Shown here piece after piece: positions 20-7,004 of a stretch of 48,882 bases of DNA. The stretch is taken from NCBI GenBank assembly GCA_019429005.1, contig JAHYJR010000002.1, positions 104,852 through 153,733 on the forward strand, in the 5' to 3' direction. Under the pieces are notes generated by a model that saw only the letters and a list, made by a program, of their open reading frames with translations, had not been told where the DNA came from and did not search any database. The DNA is from Nanobdellati archaeon (GTDB lineage Archaea; EX4484-52; GLR71). The first letter of the stretch is position 1. The number at the start of each line of letters is the position of its first letter. The position numbers and the translations under genes were made by a program.

Positions 20-1156
20 TTAAACCATTTTAAAATTCTTATAATTTTCAAGATTTTCTTTTGTAATCGCAGGGTTAACAGTATCAATCGCTTTTCTAAA
101 ATCATCTAAAATTATATAATCATTTTCTTTTGTATTAACATAACGAATAATTGCATTATATCCCGCAGCAGAAATAATATTTTTTATGTCGCGACCACTA
201 TATAACGAACAAAAATTATTTTCTTTTTTCGCCATTATATGATATATACTTTTAGGATTCACATCACTAGCAAAACAATCTTCACCAATTATTGTCTTTT
301 TAATCTCATTATTAATTATAGATATTTTTGCATCTTTATCGGGAGGTCCGACATATAATTGCATAGGTAACCGACTCAATATTGCATCATCAATCATATC
401 GGGCCTATTTGTAGAACCTATAATCGTTATATTATTATTATCTTTACTTGATGCACCATCCATTTCAACAAGAAGCGTACTGATAAATCTTAAAGAAGCT
501 TCACTTTCAGATGCATCTCTTTTTTTTGTAAGAGCGTCAATCTCATCAAGAAAAATTATACTTTTCTGCAATTTAGCAGAATCAAAAATAGCCTTAATAG
601 ATTTTTCAGAATCACCAACCCATTTTGAAATAACATCTGAAATTTTAACATCATATACTTTAATATCTGAATCAATCTCACCCGCTGCAGCACACACTAA
701 ATAAGTCTTACCACACCCAGGAGGACCATACATAAGTATACCACCTTGAGATTCAACTTTAAACGAAAGCTCATGTGATGAAGAATATACAATTCTTGCC
801 AAAAGCATATCTTTCACTGAATCCATACCAATAATATCATCAAAAGTACTATAAGATGATAAGATACAACCCTCAGTCCAACAGATATCAGATAAATCTG
901 AATTAAATAATTCTTGTGAAACGGGATTATGTTCTGATATCTGTTTAAAAATATTCCAAGATAATTCTTGAGCCTCTTTTAAATAAGTCCTACAAGTCTC
1001 TTTTAATGCAAAATCATCAGTTGATATAGCACAATTTGCAAATCCATCCTTTGCCTGATAAAAAAGACTCATTGCGATTTTACTGTCTTGAGCTGTTTTT
1101 GCACCCAATAAATTATTTTTGGCATTATTAAATAATAGCCTCTGTAATCTATCCAT
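20..1156 (-). CDS. Vps4/CdvC-like AAA ATPase with MIT-like N-terminus
   Basis: AAA ATPase of 378 residues, predicted to disassemble or remodel ESCRT-III-like filaments in division or membrane scission. Residues about 5-75 form a helical, Ala/Lys-rich segment with the spacing of an MIT domain (key stretches SLFYQAKDGF and TYLKEAQEL). The AAA core has Walker A GPPGCGKT, a pore-region motif SKWVGDSEKS, Walker B IIFLDEID, and the ESEAS...LLVEMDG stretch typical of the Vps4/katanin clade. The C-terminus (NPAITKENLENYKNF) resembles the Vps4 C-terminal helix. The usual double arginine-finger segment reads AILSRLP, so one arginine is missing. It lies 25 nt downstream of the helical protein gene on the same strand, probably as one operon. 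The AAA family call is secure; ESCRT partnership is inferred from domain layout and neighbour. Confidence 0.85.
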   Translation of the reverse strand: MDRLQRLLFNNAKNNLLGAKTAQDSKIAMSLFYQAKDGFANCAISTDDFALKETCRTYLKEAQELSWNIFKQISEHNPVSQELFNSDLSDICWTEGCILSSYSTFDDIIGMDSVKDMLLARIVYSSSHELSFKVESQGGILMYGPPGCGKTYLVCAAAGEIDSDIKVYDVKISDVISKWVGDSEKSIKAIFDSAKLQKSIIFLDEIDALTKKRDASESEASLRFISTLLVEMDGASSKDNNNITIIGSTNRPDMIDDAILSRLPMQLYVGPPDKDAKISIINNEIKKTIIGEDCFASDVNPKSIYHIMAKKENNFCSLYSGRDIKNIISAAGYNAIIRYVNTKENDYIILDDFRKAIDTVNPAITKENLENYKNFKMV

Positions 1157-1181
1157 AATACCACTATCTAAATTTAGATAA

Positions 1182-1886
1182 TTATGTATATAATTCCTTA
1201 TTTAAATGAACAGTATCAGGACCATTAGGACTCTCAATAATTTCATAAGCTTTGATAATTGACGGATTATACATATTAGGATTCTGTTTAATATCATTAA
1301 TAACTCGATCAATATCTAAAACACCTTTCATACGTGCAACATCTGCATTAAGCGTATCTTTTTGCATATCTCTCTGTTTCTCTTTAAACCGTCTTATTTT
1401 GTATGCATCAATTGAAGTCTTCTGACCAAGCATATCATCAGTCTCTTGTATTATATCAATTATCCCCTCAATTGTATCAGTACTAATTGGAGTACCAAAA
1501 GTTTTTGCATCATACATTGCACGTTGCATAGAATAAATCTTATTTTTAACAGCACGATGTAAAGGTCTTAATTCATTATAACAACTTCTTGAACTAGCAA
1601 ATTCAAGCTTTACATCTGATTGCTCTTCCTGAAGCATTACCATCTGTGAAAGCAAAGCTTTTGCTTCATCATCATCATAAATAGTCTCAGAATTTGTTGT
1701 GTATTTTTCAATACTATTTAAAATCTCTGCCAACTCAATATCTATATTTGATATTGTATCTTTTGAACGTGCAATCTCAACTTGATACCGATCCATTTCA
1801 CTTTCAATTTTTGAATAAGACAACTCAAGATTATTAAGCTGTACTTCCGGACTAGTCTCTTTTTTAAAAATATCTAAAAACCCCAT
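1182..1886 (-). CDS. ESCRT-III/CdvB-like helical protein (putative)
   Basis: A 234-residue, almost wholly helical, charged protein without signal peptide or membrane segment. It opens with a short amphipathic MGFLDIFKK, as many Snf7-family proteins do, followed by long heptad-like helices (about 15-55, 70-130), then STDTIEGIIDIIQETDDML, which matches the spacing of the ESCRT-III alpha4-alpha5 region. The C-terminal tail (NPNMYNPSIIKAYEII) could be a partner-binding motif but is not a clear MIM. The start is set by AGGTGAT four bases before the ATG. The MIT-bearing Vps4-like ATPase follows directly, as CdvC follows CdvB in Cdv loci. No family is recognised with certainty by eye; a generic coiled-coil adaptor is the alternative. 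Confidence 0.6.
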   Translation of the reverse strand: MGFLDIFKKETSPEVQLNNLELSYSKIESEMDRYQVEIARSKDTISNIDIELAEILNSIEKYTTNSETIYDDDEAKALLSQMVMLQEEQSDVKLEFASSRSCYNELRPLHRAVKNKIYSMQRAMYDAKTFGTPISTDTIEGIIDIIQETDDMLGQKTSIDAYKIRRFKEKQRDMQKDTLNADVARMKGVLDIDRVINDIKQNPNMYNPSIIKAYEIIESPNGPDTVHLNKELYT

Positions 1887-2083: not shown

Positions 2084-3217
2084 TCATTTAACTTTCAATT
2101 CACCAATAATATTTTCAAAAAGTAATTTGATTTCGGACCCATCAGAAGAATCAAAATTATCAATTGTCCAAATATAACCTTGTTTATCTCGACTTATAAT
2201 CTGTTCCATCATTTTTTTCTTATCTTGATAACAATACTGGCTTTTAAGCCGTCTATCTATCTGTTCATCAGAAAAACCTTTACCTTTCAAACGCCTTTTT
2301 TGACTTGAAATATCAGTATTTACAAGTATTATATTATTATTACATAAATAAGTCATATCAGTTTCAACCATCAAAGCAGCATCAATCAAAATCAAACCTT
2401 TCTTACCATACAAATTTCGTCTTATCCTAACAAGCATAGGCGTATACATAATAGCATTCAGCTTATTTAATGCAACAGAATCATTAAATACAATATCACC
2501 TAACACTTTACGATTAATAGTTCCATCACCAACATCAACACGAGATCCAAAAGTTTCAATAATTTGCTCCCGAACCTGCTGATATTTAGGTTCTTTCAAC
2601 TTACCAAGAATATTATGACCAATCTTATCCAAATCAAGATTATGTACAGTAATTCCTTTAGCTTTTGCAATCTCTTCAAATTTACAACTAATATACGATT
2701 TACCAGAACCAATCTCTCCAGTCACACCGATTATAAATTGATTAGAAATCCGCTCTTCCAAACATAATTTCACATACAAAGGCACATATTCATGTACAAG
2801 TCCCTGTTCATTCTGAATAGATTTAACAATACTTGAACTGATATGTGCAAGTTCAGGCTTTGCAAACAAGATATAAGTATCAATACCTAATTTTTGACTT
2901 TCACCGACCTGATGCAAGATATTTTCATAATTAAAATCAGAAGCATTTCTAACACCTTTAACTATAACAAAAATACCATTCTCATACGCATAATCTACAA
3001 GAAGACCTTTAAAAGAAACAACATCAACGTTAGACAAATGAGCAGTTGATTTCTCAGCCATTAATTTTCGCTCATCCAAACTAAACATATATTCTTTAGA
3101 AGGATTGATTCCAATACCTACTAAAACCTTACCAAACACTTTAGAAGCACGTTCAATAATATCCATATGACCATACGTTATAGGATCTCCAGAAAATGCA
3201 TAAATCGCGATATTCAT
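2084..3217 (-). CDS. coaDE: Fused phosphopantetheine adenylyltransferase-dephospho-CoA kinase (CoaD-CoaE)
   Basis: Bifunctional enzyme of 377 residues for the last two steps of coenzyme A synthesis. Residues 1-160 are a bacterial-type CoaD: the nucleotidyltransferase motif appears as FSGDPITYGHMDI, followed by PSKEYMFSLDERKLMAEK, VKGVRNASDFNYE and the ISSSIVK motif. From about residue 165 a P-loop kinase begins with GVTGEIGSGKS and continues as a CoaE-like domain, with the LDLDKIGH segment and an arginine-rich lid. Archaea usually have a different PPAT family and a GTP-dependent dephospho-CoA kinase, so both halves look bacterial in type, and their fusion recalls animal CoA synthase. The start is the internal ATG (MNIAIYA) with GAGTGAT upstream, not the ATG five codons earlier. 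Confidence 0.88.
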   Translation of the reverse strand: MNIAIYAFSGDPITYGHMDIIERASKVFGKVLVGIGINPSKEYMFSLDERKLMAEKSTAHLSNVDVVSFKGLLVDYAYENGIFVIVKGVRNASDFNYENILHQVGESQKLGIDTYILFAKPELAHISSSIVKSIQNEQGLVHEYVPLYVKLCLEERISNQFIIGVTGEIGSGKSYISCKFEEIAKAKGITVHNLDLDKIGHNILGKLKEPKYQQVREQIIETFGSRVDVGDGTINRKVLGDIVFNDSVALNKLNAIMYTPMLVRIRRNLYGKKGLILIDAALMVETDMTYLCNNNIILVNTDISSQKRRLKGKGFSDEQIDRRLKSQYCYQDKKKMMEQIISRDKQGYIWTIDNFDSSDGSEIKLLFENIIGELKVK

Positions 3218-3328
3218 ACTAATAATTATCACTCAAAAGTTTAAAAACTATGTTAAAATTGAATTAAAAAATATTATTTAACAAAACATTAAAAAAATAA
3301 CAAAATATAAAGAAAAAAAAAGTAGAGA

Positions 3329-5297: not shown

Positions 5298-7004
5298 TCA
5301 TCGATTACTACGACGTCCACTAAAAGCTGGTTTTTTTCTCATACCACCACGTGATGATATGTTTCTTTTAGGTCCATTGCCTGAAGGATTAAATTTAGTT
5401 GTTGGACTAGAATCACTACTAGAACTTGAACTGCTTTTAAATCCGGAACTTGAACCGGAACTTCTTCGATATCCACCACTTGAACCAGCTCCATCACTTG
5501 AACCTGAACTTCTTCGATATCCACCACTTGAACCAGCTCCATCACTTGAACCTGAACTTCTTCGATATCCATCACTTGAACCAGCTCCATCACTTGAACC
5601 TGAACTTCTTCGATATCCATCACTTGAACCAGCACCATAACTTGAACTGGAACTTCTTCGATATCCACCACTTGAACCAGCACCATAACTTGAACTGGAA
5701 CTTCTTCGGTATCCTTCACCTGAAACAGCCCCATAACTTGAACCTGAATTTCTTCTAGATCCATCACTTGGACCAGAACCTCTTCTAAATCCGCCGCTAG
5801 AACCACCAGATCCACCACGACTTCCATAACTTGAAGTTCGTCTGTTACCACGACCATTATCATCTCTTGAAGGTGGTGCTCTTTCAAACATAACAGTTTC
5901 AATATCTTTTGGAATTTCCATACTGATTATATTTAAAGTTTTATCAGACAAAACATTTCGGAAATTATCATAATCCCTATCAGTCAATAAAGTTACAGCT
6001 TCACCATTTTTACCTGCTCTCGCAGTTCTTCCAACACGATGAACATAGTCTTCAGAAGTCTGAGGAACATCATAATTATATACATGTGTAACATCCTTTA
6101 TGTCAAGACCTCTTGCTGCAACATCAGTCGCTACAAGAACTTGTATATTTCCAATTTTAAGTGAATTAAGAGCATGAGTCCTTTGATTCTGCCTTAAACC
6201 ACCATGAATTGCCATAGCATCAACACCATGATTCTTAAGATTAAATGCTAAATTATCAACTTCACGTCTTGTAGCACAAAATACTAAAGATAAACCACTA
6301 GCCTCTCTTTTAACCAAATTTAATAATAATGACAATTTAAAATTCTTATTTACATTAAAATAAATCTGATTTAATTTACTTTTATCAATTCTTGTCTGCC
6401 CTTTAATAATTACAGGAGCATTTAAGTAAGTCCTTACCACAGATTCTACTTTAGGTGGTAAAGTTGCACTAAAAAGAATTGTCTGTCTTTGTTTTGGTAC
6501 AGATTTTAATATCCTATCAACATCTTCCTTGAATCCCATCTCAAACATTTTATCTACTTCATCAAGAATTAAATATTTTATGTTTTTAAGATCAATTGTT
6601 TTACGTTTAATATGATCTAATAATCTACCAGGTGTTGCTACAACAACGTCTGTTCTTTTAACATCACGTATCTGCCGACTCATGTCAGCTCCACCATATA
6701 TCGCTGTGGTATTAATGCGTTTTGATCTTCCAAAAGTCGAAAATGTATCTTTAACTTGCATACAAAGCTCCCTTGTTGGAGTTAAAACTAATGTTTGTAT
6801 ACCTTTATCTGGTGTCATCATCTCTAGAACTGGAATAGCAAATGCTACCGTTTTACCAGATCCTGTTACAGATTGACCAACTACATCTTTTCCTTTCTTT
6901 ATCTCAGGAATACACTTTTCCTGTATCTCAGTAGGCTCTTCAAATCCTTCTTTCTTAATTACTTCAAGAATAGATAGACTAAACCCAAAATCTTCAAATT
7001 TCAT
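5298..7004 (-). CDS. DEAD-box RNA helicase with Ser/Gly/Arg repeat tail
   Basis: ATP-dependent RNA helicase of 568 residues. The core (about 1-370) shows the Q motif region (GFEEPTEIQEKCIP), motif I TGSGKT, Ia PTREL, Ib TPGRLLD, motif II as DEVD instead of DEAD, SAT, ATDVAARGLD and HRVGRTARAGK. The last 190 residues are low complexity: RG-rich, then 16-residue repeats of the type GYRRSSGSSDGAGSSG, then a Ser-run and a basic end. Such tails bind RNA or drive condensation in other DEAD-box proteins. It may act in ribosome assembly or cold adaptation. AAGGACGAT precedes the ATG, and the upstream gap could hold a long leader. Confidence 0.92.
   Translation of the reverse strand: MKFEDFGFSLSILEVIKKEGFEEPTEIQEKCIPEIKKGKDVVGQSVTGSGKTVAFAIPVLEMMTPDKGIQTLVLTPTRELCMQVKDTFSTFGRSKRINTTAIYGGADMSRQIRDVKRTDVVVATPGRLLDHIKRKTIDLKNIKYLILDEVDKMFEMGFKEDVDRILKSVPKQRQTILFSATLPPKVESVVRTYLNAPVIIKGQTRIDKSKLNQIYFNVNKNFKLSLLLNLVKREASGLSLVFCATRREVDNLAFNLKNHGVDAMAIHGGLRQNQRTHALNSLKIGNIQVLVATDVAARGLDIKDVTHVYNYDVPQTSEDYVHRVGRTARAGKNGEAVTLLTDRDYDNFRNVLSDKTLNIISMEIPKDIETVMFERAPPSRDDNGRGNRRTSSYGSRGGSGGSSGGFRRGSGPSDGSRRNSGSSYGAVSGEGYRRSSSSSYGAGSSGGYRRSSSSSYGAGSSDGYRRSSGSSDGAGSSDGYRRSSGSSDGAGSSGGYRRSSGSSDGAGSSGGYRRSSGSSSGFKSSSSSSSDSSPTTKFNPSGNGPKRNISSRGGMRKKPAFSGRRSNR
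5444..5740 (-). repeat. 48-bp tandem repeats in helicase tail
   Basis: About six 48-nt units, each coding 16 residues (GYRRSS[SG]SS[YD]GAGSS[GD]). The third and fourth units are nearly identical at the DNA level, and outer units differ by Tyr/Asp and Ser/Gly exchanges. The pattern indicates recent in-frame expansion by slippage or recombination. Confidence 0.85.

Follow-up and report, generated by a model that had tools for sequence, protein, structure and literature searches.

A probable minimal ESCRT-III/Vps4-like gene pair in a probably Nanohaloarchaea-like archaeon that also carries FtsZ and SepF

In most archaeal ESCRT systems, the gene for ESCRT-III lies upstream of the gene for Vps4, and minimal pairs are known outside the TACK and Asgard archaea in Thermoplasmata, Thermococcales and other clades (PMC10936438). 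The minimal system of Thermoplasmata consists of Vps4, ESCRT-III and arCOG07400 and often occurs alongside FtsZ (PMC10936438). DPANN archaea, among which Nanohaloarchaea are usually placed (PMC9765267), were not mentioned in this 2024 survey. A 2021 review describes ESCRT proteins as absent from DPANN (PMC10117752), and according to a 2024 review, division in DPANN is FtsZ-based (PMC7617429). Here, we describe two adjacent genes in a stretch of 48,882 nucleotides (the window) from a Nanobdellati archaeon (GCA_019429005.1, contig JAHYJR010000002.1). The host is probably a small, FtsZ-bearing, Nanohaloarchaea-like DPANN archaeon; NCBI taxonomy files the class Nanohaloarchaea under Methanobacteriota. 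Its genome has a size of 1.08 Mb and is 93.6% complete with 1.1% contamination. We consider it likely that the two genes form a minimal and fast-diverging ESCRT-III/Vps4 module.

Both ORFs were found where the preliminary description had placed them, on the minus strand at the start of the window, with the gene for a 234-aa protein 25 nt upstream of the gene for a 378-aa ATPase (Table 1). Their products contain MGFLDIFKK, GPPGCGKT, IFLDEID and SKWVGDSE as well as the tail NPNMYNPSIIKAYEII. The pair stands alone in its own genome, since its neighbors are a CoaD-CoaE fusion gene on the 5' side (2084-3232, minus strand) and, past the window edge, a gene on the opposite strand, named nitroreductase-like from its sequence. 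There is no third gene beside the pair, and no CdvA-like gene was noticed among the adjacent genes. The ORF at 2084-3232 joins a cytidylyltransferase-like (CoaD/PPAT-type) domain (Pfam 6.7e-16) and a CoaE dephospho-CoA kinase domain (4e-23) in one protein, an arrangement that resembles the eukaryotic CoA synthase fusion. A short AAATT pentanucleotide tandem repeat (1979-2008) lies between this gene and the ESCRT-like gene. Further along, a DEAD-box helicase-like ORF (5298-7004, minus strand) carries a long, repetitive Gly/Ser/Arg-rich C-terminal tail that gives rise to overlapping spurious ORFs.

Table 1. Positions in the window of the two genes and of the features assigned to their products.
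Feature	Position	Strand	Basis
ESCRT-III-like protein, 234 aa	1182..1886	-	ORF; kept in 7 sister-genus genomes; archaeal ESCRT-III profiles matched above decoys
N-terminal amphipathic segment MGFLDIFKK (a0-like)	1860..1886	-	Hydrophobic moment; AF2 low-confidence helix 3-6
Predicted helix a1, residues 13-64	1695..1850	-	AF2, pLDDT mostly 86-94
Predicted helix a2, residues 72-125	1512..1673	-	AF2; hhalign register
Predicted a3/a4 region, residues 136-179, low-moderate confidence	1350..1481	-	AF2 pLDDT 47-64
Conserved C-terminal two-helix element, residues 192-218 (within DIDRVINDIKQNPNMYNPSIIKAYEII)	1233..1313	-	AF2 pLDDT 84-91; invariant columns
Vps4/CdvC-type AAA ATPase, 378 aa	20..1156	-	Pfam AAA; NCBIfam CdvC top match; tree
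N-terminal three-helix region, MIT-like, residues 2-76	929..1153	-	AF2; Pfam MIT sub-threshold
Walker A, GPPGCGKT	704..727	-	Sequence; invariant in ATPase family except final T/S
Walker B, IFLDEID	536..562	-	Sequence; D204, E205, D207 invariant
Arg262, sole arginine of ILSRL finger loop, without PG insertion	371..373	-	Alignment with TACK, Asgard-like and f12 Vps4s
Vps4_C-like C-terminal region (FRKAIDTVNPAITKENLENYKNF)	32..112	-	Pfam Vps4_C sub-threshold; alignable

The ATPase contains a complete AAA core (Pfam AAA, 4.6e-37) in a single cassette with intact Walker A and B motifs. Its best NCBIfam match was CdvC (3.3e-43), with a score of 148 bits that is far below the model cut-off of 650. 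Pfam Vps4_C was matched below threshold (E 0.0046; 17.3 bits versus a cut-off of 21.3), and the C-terminus can be aligned with the C-termini of other archaeal Vps4s. When the predicted structure, a low-confidence model (pLDDT 51), was searched with Foldseek, it fell into the classical AAA group, with matches that include Metallosphaera Vps4 and yeast Vps4. In a maximum-likelihood tree, the ATPases of the window and of a sister genus (g3) grouped together as a single clade (100/100), whose long branch lies outside CDC48 and in no resolved position among the Vps4 lineages. The finger loop lacks the two-residue PG insertion, as do those of TACK, Asgard-like and f12 Vps4s, while the insertion is present in CDC48 and in the Vps4s of families f5 and f33. 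At the position of RRF in TACK Vps4s, the window ATPase reads ILSRL. The single arginine in this segment, pointed out in the preliminary description, is therefore real, though not peculiar to this enzyme, since f12 Vps4s have LSRF here. In the alignment, f12 and Asgard-like Vps4s likewise lack two consecutive finger arginines, which thus cannot serve as an absolute criterion for Vps4/CdvC. The best NCBIfam match, the weak Vps4_C match and the compact finger loop bear out the proposed Vps4 type, and the assignment of the enzyme as a Vps4/CdvC-type ATPase is well supported.

An MIT-like N-terminus had also been proposed for the ATPase. AF2 indeed predicted three helices in this region (2-21, 25-45 and 49-76; pLDDT 63-87), but Pfam MIT was matched only below its cut-off (E 0.077), profile comparison did not separate the N-terminus from decoys, and a PDB search with it did not confirm an MIT domain. 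The three predicted helices fit a putative MIT domain.

The preliminary description had suggested searching relatives for conserved adjacency. Searches with the ATPase returned one strong relative per genome in six genomes of the sister genus (35-37% identity), and the product of the gene directly upstream of it is, in each genome, helical and about 216-230 aa long, so that both genes are clear and stand in the same order. In a seventh genome of this genus (G005), the gene for the small protein is present and the ATPase gene is interrupted at the contig edge. Among 394 archaeal genomes searched, the profile of the small-protein family was matched over its full length in the window genome and in all seven sister-genus genomes. 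The pair was not found in any other of these genomes, the remaining small-protein matches being short partial stretches. Neither gene was found in G001, a genome of the same family with 72% completeness. A search for related loci with the ATPase family named the sister genus and otherwise returned mostly CDC48 and other AAA proteins. A profile built from the sister genus only recovered the small protein of the window with an E-value of 4e-5 against 1361 background ORFs. With dN/dS values of about 0.05-0.09 for the small protein and 0.06-0.14 for the ATPase, both genes are under strong purifying selection. That the pairing is more than chance is well supported. Contamination was rejected as the source of the pair on the grounds of the 153-kb contig, the low contamination estimate and the retention of the pair in seven other MAGs, where it sits near archaeal PCNA, TFS and RpoL genes. 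In the sister genus, a gene for a protein of about 245 aa lies directly upstream of the ESCRT-like gene (L014 11486-12223, minus strand, and homologues). It has no Pfam match, its C-terminal half looks helical, and it was rejected as part of the window module because the window genome lacks it.

We then turn to the small protein. AF2 (mean pLDDT 71) predicted a short N-terminal helix, two long helices, a1 and a2 (52 and 54 residues), and C-terminal helices, that is, a hairpin followed by shorter helices in an ESCRT-III-like order. The hydrophobic moment of the MGFLDIFKK segment is 0.42, and values of 0.57-0.67 were obtained for four sister-genus homologues. The C-terminal helices comprise residues 192-201 and 208-218, and eight of the 14 family-invariant columns fall within residues 194-214. 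Since the tail is the most conserved stretch of the protein, this element is, judged from sequence, the best candidate for docking of the ATPase. A regex search for MIM1/MIM2 gave no match in the 234-aa protein, and most reference archaeal ESCRT-IIIs fail the same regex. The basic-N/acidic-C charge pattern of ESCRT-III is not seen in the window protein: its N-terminal half has a charge of -8, followed by -4, whereas reference ESCRT-IIIs are mostly basic in the N-half. The sister-genus proteins are about neutral in the N-half and then acidic.

The preliminary description had called the 234-aa protein ESCRT-III-like. No member of the small-protein family matched Pfam Snf7, nor did any protein of the window genome; many accepted archaeal ESCRT-IIIs likewise fall below this cut-off. 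Searches of the PDB with phmmer/hmmsearch returned nothing or keratin-type coiled coils. Foldseek gave no ESCRT-III among the top matches in the PDB, which were tektin-like proteins, SMC and designed bundles, all unrelated and with E-values of at least 0.02; it was judged uninformative because the model is helical and of low confidence. Without a Snf7 match or an ESCRT-III among the Foldseek matches, family profiles were therefore compared with controls using hhalign. The best targets of the small-protein family were archaeal ESCRT-III sets (scores of 40.3, 37.4, 32.2, 29.8 and 26.5), followed by PspA (25.9), Rad50/SMC-type coiled-coil windows as the best coiled-coil decoy (23.2), the best unrelated family (20.6) and the best reversed set (20.1). 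The alignment with ESCRT-III runs from start to start and stays in register from the N-terminus to a2, where the segment DEAKALLSQM aligns to ESCRT-III a2. None of 400 heptad-block shuffles of the profile of all ESCRT-IIIs and none of 200 shuffles of the non-euryarchaeal set reached the family score. The window protein alone was discriminated poorly, with its score reached by 2 of 400 and 55 of 200 shuffles, respectively, and the best probability of the family against ESCRT-III was 76%, below the usual 95%. The profile comparison thus supports, at the level of the family and not beyond doubt, membership in the ESCRT-III superfamily, while the single protein was placed neither by library searches nor by Foldseek.

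The same data bear on the possibility that a Vps4/katanin-like AAA remodeller is here paired with an unrelated coiled-coil protein that serves as its substrate or adaptor, with the likeness to ESCRT-III arising from convergence of helical hairpins. The failure to match Snf7 or an ESCRT-III fold, the acidic N-half of the window protein, its poor discrimination when taken alone and the modest profile probability would all agree with such a partner. Yet, when placement in an unrelated coiled-coil family was looked at by hhalign, the ESCRT-III sets scored above all coiled-coil, reversed and heptad-shuffled controls at the family level, and length, helix order, amphipathic start and gene order match ESCRT-III. 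We regard this explanation as unlikely and prefer a diverged ESCRT-III.

Could the pair be the main cell-division machine, in the manner of Cdv? A search of the genome for ftsZ, as previously suggested, revealed three Tubulin/FtsZ-family matches and one SepF. Two of the three matches are arranged in tandem in a stretch of about 2 kb (G000:C10:72034-74046). In the sister genus, wherever the contig is long enough, sepF is located about 3 kb from the pair on the other strand (L014 6105-6470 and equivalents), with MarC-like, PCNA, TFS-like and RpoL-like genes in between. This proximity and the resemblance of the minimal pair to CdvB/CdvC speak for a Cdv-style division machine, but FtsZ and SepF are encoded in the same genome, which makes a role as sole division machine unlikely, and FtsZ and SepF occur in most families of the phylum although no pair was detected there. 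We therefore assign a low probability, lower than to the unrelated coiled-coil partner, to the pair being the main division machine. By analogy with known ESCRT roles, the pair more likely acts in late scission, when division ends, in the budding of vesicles or in remodelling of the cell surface.

Compared with described systems, the pair shares with that of Thermoplasmata the minimal gene set, the occurrence outside TACK and Asgard archaea and the coexistence with FtsZ. It differs in that the partner is too diverged for Snf7, no third gene is present, and the ATPase does not group with the f33/f5 branch in the tree. With CdvB/CdvC of TACK archaea it has in common an ESCRT-III with a Vps4-type ATPase, a compact finger loop and a Vps4_C-like C-terminus; unlike them, it gave no MIM2 match and has only one finger arginine, and its ATPase stays far from the CdvC cut-off given above. 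The f12-type pairs (G328 and G377, in tandem in G328) show a similar single-arginine loop (LSRF) and YSGRE lid, but their ATPases branch only loosely with that of the window. A more canonical set of ESCRT-III and MIT-Vps4 was found in family f5 of the same phylum (G012, G017, G022 and G025; L189 2566-4264, L183, L184 and L185). The f5 ESCRT-III has an MFKLFKKK-type start that resembles the start of the window protein, and in G025 it lies directly upstream of Vps4. Unlike the window proteins, the f5 ESCRT-III has a sub-threshold Snf7 match (0.0057), and the f5 Vps4 reads RRPGRF. In all four genomes, the gene after this Vps4 encodes a membrane protein whose C-terminus resembles a winged helix (incomplete at the contig end in G025). 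PspA/Vipp1 shares a helical hairpin with the small protein at the superfamily level, with a lower profile score. Bacterial PspA systems are not known to have a Vps4 partner. It is very improbable that the small protein derives from the PspA/Vipp1 type rather than from archaeal ESCRT-III and was captured by a Vps4-like ATPase: the PspA score comes near those of the weaker ESCRT-III sets and a PspA-like protein adjoins a Vps4-like ATPase in Halo_adaptin loci (PMC10936438), but the two best ESCRT-III sets score far higher, the PspA_IM30 profile has no match in the window genome or its phylum relatives, and the ATPase carries a Vps4_C-like C-terminus.

For a diverged ESCRT-III/Vps4 module, we infer the following mode of action. 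An amphipathic N-terminus would anchor the 234-aa protein to the membrane, and the protein may polymerize via the long hairpin predicted for a1-a2. The Vps4-like ATPase would bind to it as a hexamer, probably via the conserved C-terminal NPxxY two-helix element, and could pull subunits through its pore, so that the filament would be remodelled or disassembled, leading to scission. More tentatively, and with slightly more doubt than confidence, the locus may represent an undescribed ESCRT-III/Vps4 clade of a DPANN-type lineage (Nanohaloarchaea/EX4484-52 neighborhood) beside FtsZ/SepF, in which a new NPxxY two-helix docking element replaces MIM1/MIM2.

The literature search, outside of which lay most subscription papers and all preprints, yielded no paper describing the window pair. 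The preliminary description was right to place the module outside Crenarchaeota and Asgard archaea but overlooked the pairs of Thermoplasmata, Thermococcales and others (PMC10936438). As pairs of this kind have been described there, DPANN went unmentioned and the f5 set is more canonical, the kind of pair is already known, and what is new, as far as the searched collection shows, is the lineage in which it occurs and how far it has diverged. Together with the f5 pair in the same phylum, the conserved window pair would extend ESCRT to the DPANN branch, which would bear on its presence in the last archaeal common ancestor. It would also provide a scission system of two proteins that could be reconstituted, and it suggests that ESCRT-III may diverge until profiles no longer recognize it, with gene order and the ATPase partner retained.
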